Shown here one piece after another: positions 2,656-5,065 of a stretch of DNA of 64,000 bases (its first letter is position 1; every line of letters starts with the position of its first letter). Origin of the DNA: Paracyclopina nana (lineage: Eukaryota; Arthropoda; Copepoda; Cyclopoida; Cyclopettidae); assembly GCA_019096065.1 (NCBI GenBank), contig JAGUCH010000005.1:3906001-3970000 (forward strand). The letters are read 5' to 3'. A program made the position numbers and the translations under genes. The notes beneath the pieces were generated by a model. It was given only the letters and a program-made list of their open reading frames with translations. It searched no databases and was not told the DNA's origin.

Positions 2656-5065
2656 ATGGAGAAGTTGCAGACTATCATTTTCTTCTGCCTAATAATTTTC
2701 TGTTCAAAAGCTTCTTCTTCTGGTTCAATTAGAATTGATCGCAGCGATGACATCTCCAGCATATCAATCGAGTTCAAAGGAGTGAAGCTACTTGAGCACA
2801 GTGAAGCGAGACCTTTGCTATCTCTGGGTTTTGGAACCTTTGAAGCTGTTGATAACCAGGGAAATTTTGACATCACCGATGAAATTTCAACAAGACTGAG
2901 TCTTAACAAAGCAGATGCCTATCCAAGTTTGATAACATCTTAAAGTGCATTTTGATTTATTTCTAACTATTTTTTTAAAGGCGGCCATCAAATTATCATT
3001 GAATTGAAAAGCAGCGAAGATGAAAATGTCAGCGTGACTCTTGTGCTTGAAGAAAATAGTGATGGCCAATGTGAAATCACTCTGGACTTGCAACGATCAC
3101 AGATTTCAGCATCAAAATTCAACTTGTGGTTCCTCACGCTTCCCGCTGAGCAAAATGAGTACGTTTGGGGCGGGGGAGAGCAGTTCACCTACTTGAATTT
3201 GCGTCAAGGCGCAACTTACCCAATATGGTCCAGAGAACAAGGGGTTGGCAGAAATAAATCGAGTCCTTTAACGCAAGTAAGTTAGCCTTCGATATTTTGC
3301 GGGATTTATATTGGCCTTATCATAAAAACCAATGAACCAAACAACTGATCATCATGGTAGGTTGGGTTTATTCAACATATTTTGTTGCGCTTATTTTGAA
3401 AATATTTTTAGATCGTTGATTTGGTTGCGGGAGCAGGCGGAGACTATCATACTACATATTGGCCTCAGCCAAGCTTTTTGTCATCCAGAGGATACCATTT
3501 TGAGCTTACTTACCCAACTTACTCTGAACTACGCCTACTTCCGCTCAGTGATGACGTCACAAAGGGGCATGAGATTTACTGGCACTACTCGCCTAACAAG
3601 CAGCATCCTTGTGTGGCTTGCAAACTTGTGTTTACTGTAGAACCCACGCTGATGGAAATTGTTCAGAAAATCAACCCAGGCCAACCCGAAATTCCAGAAT
3701 GGACTTATAATGGAGCCATTCTTGGAATCCAGGGTGGAACTCAGAGAATGCTGGAAATCATTGATCAGGCTAAAAGTGCTCAAGTTGCTGTGAGTGGCGT
3801 TTGGATTCAGGACTGGTCAGGCAAAATTGTCACTGATTTTGGATCCAGAGTCTTTTGGAACTGGAAGTGGAACTCAACCTGGTACCCTGACCTGGATGTG
3901 GTAATTCAGGATTTACTAGAAGAAGAGATCAGAGTTACTGCCTACATCACTCCCCACCTCAACACAAATGGAGACATATACCAAGAACACCAAGAAGAAG
4001 ATTTATGGCTTACAGATAATGATGGATCAGTCTTGACTCAAGATTTTGGCCAGTTCAATGTATCCACTGTGGACATTTTGAAGCAAGATCCAGAATGCAA
4101 CTGTCTCAATCCTGCCAGGATCTGGTACAAAGAATTGATCAAGAGTAATCTAATTGATCTTGGATTTGCTGGATGGATGGCTGACTTTGGAGAATATACT
4201 CCCACCAATGGAGCTACCAAATTTGGAGGGAGATGGTGGGGCAATGATGGTGATGAAATTCTGCACAGCTTTATTCCTCAGCATTGGGCCAGCTTGAACA
4301 GGGAAGCCATTGAAGAAGCTGGAAAGCTTGGGGAAATTATGTTCTGGATGAGATCGGGAGGGATATCATCTAAATACGACCAGGTGATGTCATGGGCTGG
4401 AGATCAGACTGTGGATTGGACGAAATCTGATGGTCTGCCGAGCTCTATCATTGCTGCACTTTCCTTAGCTGTATCTGGAATGGGATTGAGTCATAGTGAC
4501 ATTGGAGGGTATACATCTTTACCACAACTTGGTGAAGAGCTAGGACCAATCAGGGACCAGGAGCTCTTATTAAGATGGGCAGAATACTCTGTTTTTACTC
4601 CTCTCATGAGAACCCATGAAGGTAACAGGCCACTTGAGAATGTCCAAGTTTATGATGATAGGAAACTTTTGAAAAATTCGGAAGGCTAACGCGAATGCAC
4701 AAGGATCTTGCCCCATACATAAGAGGGGCTGTGAGACAAAATGCCCACCTTGGTGTGCCTGTGATGAGACCACTGTTTTTGATGTATGAATCTGACTTGC
4801 AAGGATACGAGGCAGAGCACCAATACATGTTTGGTGATGACATCCTCGTTGCACCTGTCCTCGAGCCAGGTGTTCAAGATTGGCATGTTTATTTGCCTGG
4901 TCCTGAGGAATGGATTTGGTTCTGGGACATTCTTGATGATCCAGTTTCCATTCCAGGTCAGCAATCTATTATTGCTTATTCTCCCATGGGACTTCCCCCG
5001 TGTTTTACAAAGCTTCTTCAATTTATAAAGACTTGTTCAGACAAATAGCAATGAATTATCAATAA
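2656..5065 (+). CDS. Secreted GH31 glycosidase, predicted sulfoquinovosidase (YihQ-like)
   Basis: Predicted to release sulfoquinovose from plant/algal sulfolipid (SQDG) or its glyceryl derivative. Exons are 2656-2899 (or donor 2926), 2981-3276 and 3412-5065; about 731 aa. The N-terminus is a signal peptide, so it is probably secreted, for example into the gut. Motif GGEQFTYLNLR lies in the N-terminal domain. The catalytic domain has VWIQDWSG (Q about 313), R at +13 and W at +16 in FGSRVFWNW, nucleophile D in GWMADFGEY (about 438), acid/base D in SWAGDQTVDW (about 511), and Y in GGYTS exactly 36 residues later. These match the catalytic and sulfonate-binding Q/R/W/Y set described for E. coli YihQ. 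Two frame breaks (near 4661-4676 and at C-run 4995-4999) are each repaired by one extra base; after them the reading returns to conserved GH31 sequence, with C-terminal PPVFYK. The introns and leader show it is a eukaryotic gene, not bacterial contamination. Confidence 0.85.

Follow-up and report, generated by a model that had tools for sequence, protein, structure and literature searches.

We describe a GH31 gene of the copepod Paracyclopina nana which, with a probability that we put at about 0.72, encodes a secreted alpha-sulfoquinovosidase (SQase) that digests SQDG in the gut and descends vertically from an ancient bacterial transfer. The release of sulfoquinovose (SQ) from algal and plant membrane lipids is a step usually credited to bacteria. 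A 2026 review states that no SQ breakdown pathway has been characterised in eukaryotes, and a 2025 paper reports that animal SQ degradation had been unclear and that neither germ-free mice nor a human cell line degraded the sugar (PMC12330013). Databases already give invertebrate relatives of the gene this name, and as an annotation the family is therefore not novel; in the open-licence literature, searched by title and start of abstract, we found no study of an animal SQase, and as far as found the animal family is named by annotation only. The P. nana gene makes eukaryotic SQ breakdown a testable question.

Gene model and genomic setting

The window, that is the whole stretch of 64,000 nucleotides that was analysed, belongs to a 7.6 Mb contig in a 92 Mb genome of 10 contigs. 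The gene has three exons (Table 1), separated by introns whose lengths are each a multiple of three, and the preliminary description had placed its start and stop codons correctly. That stop is reached only across two places in exon 3 where the assembled frame breaks by one base, and on these the same description was silent.

Table 1. Features of the P. nana gene, numbered from the first nucleotide of the window
Feature	Position	Strand	Remarks
Whole GH31 sulfoquinovosidase-family gene, ATG to stop	2656..5065	+	740 aa, X at both frame breaks
Exon 1	2656..2926	+	
Signal-peptide-like stretch, codons 1 to ~20	2656-2715	+	hydropathy heuristic, no signal-peptide predictor
Intron 1	2927..2980	+	54 nt, GT...AG
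Exon 2	2981..3276	+	N-terminal part
Intron 2	3277..3411	+	135 nt, GT...AG
Exon 3	3412..5065	+	GH31 TIM barrel PF01055 and C-terminal domain PF21365
C256-x-x-C259	3610..3621	+	cysteine pair of copepod-like clade
Q296	3730..3732	+	YihQ Q262, sulfonate-site set; alignment
Q322	3808..3810	+	YihQ Q288; alignment
R335	3847..3849	+	YihQ R301, +13 from Q322; alignment
W338	3856..3858	+	YihQ W304, +16 from Q322; alignment
C418-x-C420	4096..4104	+	second cysteine pair of copepod-like clade
D447, catalytic nucleophile	4183..4185	+	YihQ D405; alignment
D520, acid/base	4402..4404	+	YihQ D472; alignment
Y556	4510..4512	+	YihQ Y508, +36 from D520; alignment
First one-base frame break	4660..4661	+	assembly; P0001 intact there
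Second one-base frame break, at end of C run	4998..4999	+	assembly; P0001 intact there
Candidate polyadenylation signal AATAAA	5061..5066	+	overlaps stop codon
Stop TAA	5063-5065	+	end of exon 3

The two breaks are likelier to be base-calling errors than marks of a dead gene, since the copepod-like protein P0001, 83% identical to the P. nana protein over the 74% that is covered, has an unbroken frame at both places. The opposite reading, a gene recently broken in P. nana in a family that is active in its relatives only, has the two breaks themselves in its favour, and we regard it as improbable. Identity to P0001 is 357/412 before the first break, 80/112 between the two and 21/21 after the second; being high past each break, it indicates that the downstream code is still conserved. 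Also, the second break sits on a C run, a place where base-calling slips are common, and a genome search with the 425-aa open part as query returned a single match, so no spare copy is evident. A very short third intron (about 40 nt) as the cause of the first break was rejected, as by eye it would delete the conserved EGNRP stretch.

Upstream of the gene the window carries a bHLH factor, downstream of it CD36-family and ecdysteroid-kinase-like genes and, further on, an innexin. With these animal neighbours, its introns and a contig of 7.6 Mb, the gene is a genuine animal gene, as had been claimed. By eye, the tail of the bHLH gene (1990-2060) could switch to a His-rich frame after a C run, perhaps through another one-base assembly slip, a weak indication.

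Family assignment and the sulfonate site

The open pieces of the protein match PF01055 with 119.5 bits and PF21365 with 65.9 bits. Against the NCBI model of YihQ (NF007746, curated cut-off 553) the 740-aa reading, with X at the breaks, scores 661.5 bits and the 425-aa open part alone 424.7 bits, below the cut-off. With this open part as query, YihQ in the PDB is matched with 326.9 bits and an E value of 1.9e-96, so the likeness is not due to chance. Among the 18 PDB sequences matched by the same query, the best six (E <= 8e-79) are SQases by title and the next stands at 6e-13; MYORG is not one of the 18. The P. nana protein and E. coli YihQ are 41.6% identical over 654 aligned positions, and the fold, approached via that of a relative, is closest to solved SQases.

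A tree with YicI and MYORG-like, GANAB-type and GAA-type proteins as outgroup places the P. nana protein with the YihQ-type SQases (99*), apart from all of these. The GAA-type gene is the maltase/lysosomal alpha-glucosidase-type gene of the genome, and its reading is incomplete around the nucleophile; tree and alignment left out a fifth GH31 place of the genome (L008, maltase-like). The outgroup branches are very long, and we do not trust the root so obtained, which lies among arthropods and leaves bacteria deep inside the tree.

The catalytic Asp pair and the five sulfonate positions align to YihQ without gaps, the latter in a pattern, QQRWY, that we take, like KERWY, to be the name of a YihQ-type sulfonate-site motif; KERWY is present in three proteobacterial rows of the alignment. 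The spacing that had been read from the sequence, a Gln followed by Arg at +13 and Trp at +16, and a Tyr 36 residues after the acid/base, is exact, these residues coincide in the alignment with the sulfonate set of YihQ, and Q296 adds a fifth matching position. The accompanying claim that ordinary GH31 enzymes lack the set holds for the MYORG-like, GANAB-type and GAA-type genes of the same genome, and the alignment finds it missing from E. coli YicI too. Tree placement and residue alignment thus bear out the GH31 sulfoquinovosidase identity. That the protein could be an ordinary animal GH31 enzyme of the MYORG, GANAB or acid alpha-glucosidase type, resembling SQases by chance, draws on a common superfamily and fold, and we give it next to no credence: the genome has those three types as separate genes, all three without the five-residue set, and tree and alignment together rule this identity out.

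The copepod-like rows P0001-P0016 and P. nana have the YihQ residue at each sulfonate position that they cover (the fragment P0016 is without 262). Among the 41 animal rows counted for site variation (40 animal-named plus P. nana), QQRWY is found in 31 and 10 depart from it. Eight of the 41 have F at 508 with the other four positions intact, including Pseudolycoriella, where in addition the acid/base falls in a gap; in the barnacle row 262 is E, and of the two Nucella copies one reads QMKWF, with three positions changed. P0061, P0112 and P0152, outside this count, also depart from QQRWY. The sulfonate site is therefore not frozen in animals, which counts against our preferred reading.

Some neighbouring observations concern other members of the family. 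Nucella lapillus has two SQase-like genes (P0050 and P0030) with neighbouring locus numbers, 021586 and 021587, and an equal-sized contig; 021586 has lost the sulfonate set and kept both catalytic Asp, and may act on a new substrate. In P0208, P0210, P0213, P0226, P0232 and P0277 a Gln replaces the sulfonate-site Arg (QQQWY, 6/6 rows); their clade (100/98), which takes in Alicyclobacillus, Thermotogaceae and a Bacilli MAG, may have a differing substrate. Two proteins are fusions with a GH31 SQase-like part: the 1074-aa metagenomic P0230, with PF01408, PF22725 and PF02894, presumably Gfo/Idh/MocA-type domains, and the 830-aa P0216, with PF07221, which we take to be the isomerase family of YihS.

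Export, relatives and descent

The signal peptide of the preliminary description stood as a hydrophobic, signal-like N-terminus, while secretion is predicted by a hydropathy rule of our own (threshold 2.2) that is not a signal-peptide predictor. By this rule a strongly hydrophobic N-terminus is found in 36 of the 41 animal rows versus none of 20 named bacterial proteins; once 21 bacterial locus rows, which can lack their first residues, are included, 1 of 41 is at or over the threshold. Seven of the 11 other copepod-like rows pass, and the four that fail (P0001, P0010, P0011 and P0012) are all shorter than 660 aa. P0036, P0112 and P0155, which lie outside the animal clade, have hydrophobic, lipoprotein- or signal-like starts too, which means that export is not confined to animals and may predate their branch. 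The four cysteines of Table 1 are present in all 11 other copepod-like rows, in P. nana and in Tigriopus, and in none of the 43 rows of the bacterial group, two of which are animal; putative disulfides between them would be in keeping with secretion.

Many invertebrates have SQase-like genes, which are thus no peculiarity of P. nana. Of its best 120 matches 38 are animal-named, 27 of them labelled 'sulfoquinovosidase'. Homologues occur in arthropods (copepod, Daphnia, decapods, barnacle, springtails, fungus gnats) and in molluscs, the brachiopod Lingula, echinoderms, hemichordates, lancelets and tunicates; the ciliate Paramecium sonneborni has an SQase-like protein as well. Names of vertebrates, cnidarians, sponges, annelids or nematodes are absent from the 280 distinct matches listed, which come from three sequence searches (best 120 each), are mostly nameless and are not evidence of absence. 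The P. nana gene falls in a copepod branch with Tigriopus (P0004), to which it is 53% identical and whose frame, like that of P0002, is unbroken. The copepod-like P0003, P0005, P0006, P0008 and P0009 are full-length frames whose contigs measure 2.2-2.7 kb, a transcript size with little room for introns, which hints at cDNA as their source.

In a tree of 78 rows, which omits the GH31 outgroup, 49 animal rows form one side of a branch (100/99; 100% of 200 bootstrap trees), 13 of them so counted after falling among animals in an earlier tree. Within it we recovered protostomes (34 rows, 100/97), arthropods (24, 100/100) and the copepod-like branch with P. nana (11, 100/100). Tunicates lie outside all other animals and not with the lancelet, and lancelets group with echinoderms (84/89); the order within the animal clade matches animal phylogeny only roughly. 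In a second tree, which takes in 21 bacterial loci and has its root, by our choice, on the KERWY-type proteobacterial rows, 32 animal rows and two others are nested among bacterial, mainly Bacillota, SQases (100/98). Resolution is weak for the bacterial rows closest to the animals (82/30, 84/94, or on a long branch). When the long row P0206 is removed, 33 rows (the 32 animals and P0209) hold together (98*), and a grouping of animals and P0209 with the ciliate and its neighbour is rejected (p-AU 0.02, tested post hoc on the tree). The Paramecium protein (the P0205/P0204 pair) joins proteins of Paenibacillus, Clostridium and Tepidibacillus (94/82) and stays apart from the animals, suggesting a separate, second transfer into eukaryotes, in this case a ciliate.

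The simplest reading, which fits best and is most likely on these trees, would be one ancient bacterial transfer into an early bilaterian followed by vertical descent; a deeper eukaryotic origin of the gene, with losses, is conceivable. The chosen root, the weak resolution of the nearest bacteria and the place of the tunicates weigh against our reading of the descent. Contamination by bacteria, or a gene newly acquired from a gut bacterium, would draw on the identity to YihQ given above and on the nesting of animal rows among bacterial ones; it is very improbable, and we consider it ruled out by the introns, the surrounding animal genes on a long contig and the position inside the 24-row arthropod clade. 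Acquisition from bacteria, which had been left as a possibility, thus gains support in the trees as an ancient, shared origin, and loses it as a recent event through that arthropod-clade placement.

Proposed function and known systems

By analogy with the residues of YihQ, D447 would attack the anomeric carbon and D520 would act as acid/base in a retaining double displacement, with Q296, Q322, R335, W338 and Y556 probably holding the C6 sulfonate. The site of action is most likely the gut lumen of the copepod-like grazer, where lipases would free the algal SQDG of the diet from its fatty acids, giving sulfoquinovosyl glycerol, which the enzyme would split into glycerol and SQ. The order is modelled on the mammalian gut, where lipases are reported to act on SQDG before bacterial SQases do (PMC12330013). 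The glycerol could be used by the animal, and the SQ would probably pass to gut bacteria or be excreted. E. coli YihT and YihS, used as queries in a search without a positive control, gave zero matches in the genome; no way to burn SQ is thus evident, which weakens the nutritional reading. In bacteria, genes of SQ catabolism often, though not always, accompany the SQase.

The family and the sulfonate site could also be as we propose and the job be other than digestion of dietary sulfolipid, for example on another 6-sulfonated or anionic alpha-glycoside, or on SQ lipids that have been swallowed and reach a compartment like the lysosome. The animals concerned differ in diet, with filter feeders, fungus gnats and predatory snails among them, and this, together with the F508 rows, speaks for such a job. 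Against it, copepod-like rows keep the YihQ residue at every sulfonate position present and the C-terminus of the P. nana protein is, by eye, not KDEL-like, and we hold it unlikely, though worth keeping in sight. Digestion of SQDG in the gut is thus the function that we favour. If animal SQases are indeed secreted and well conserved in grazers, the first step of sulfolipid breakdown would lie partly in animals. A wider version, which we offer tentatively and at somewhat less than even odds, is that an early bilaterian gained from a Bacillota-like bacterium an SQase whose secreted descendants in crustaceans, molluscs, echinoderms and others free SQ from eaten sulfolipid; if true, the ocean sulfonate cycle would have a real step in zooplankton guts and SQ release would not be only bacterial.

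Compared with known systems, the P. nana protein shares with bacterial GH31 SQases (5aed, 5oht, 6pnr, 8r56, 5ohy) the Asp pair, QQRWY and the fold, whereas its gene has introns, an N-terminal signal-like stretch and no sulfoglycolysis gene cluster around it, and the copepod-like branch has two extra cysteine pairs. For three bacterial SQases, kcat/KM values of 1e5 to 6e5 per M per s are listed (PMC11968277). With animal MYORG, GANAB- and GAA-type GH31 enzymes it has in common the TIM barrel and the positions of the catalytic Asp. The NAD+-dependent sulfoquinovosidases of GH188, reported from bacteria, algae, plants and a few archaea, carry out the same net reaction but belong to another family with an oxidoreductive mechanism (PMC10755693). 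The invertebrate proteins that NCBI calls 'sulfoquinovosidase-like' (Daphnia, Homarus, Diadema, Branchiostoma and others) are direct homologues, as are those of Tigriopus and Lottia, which carry other database names; from these the P. nana copy differs in being assembled with two frame breaks.
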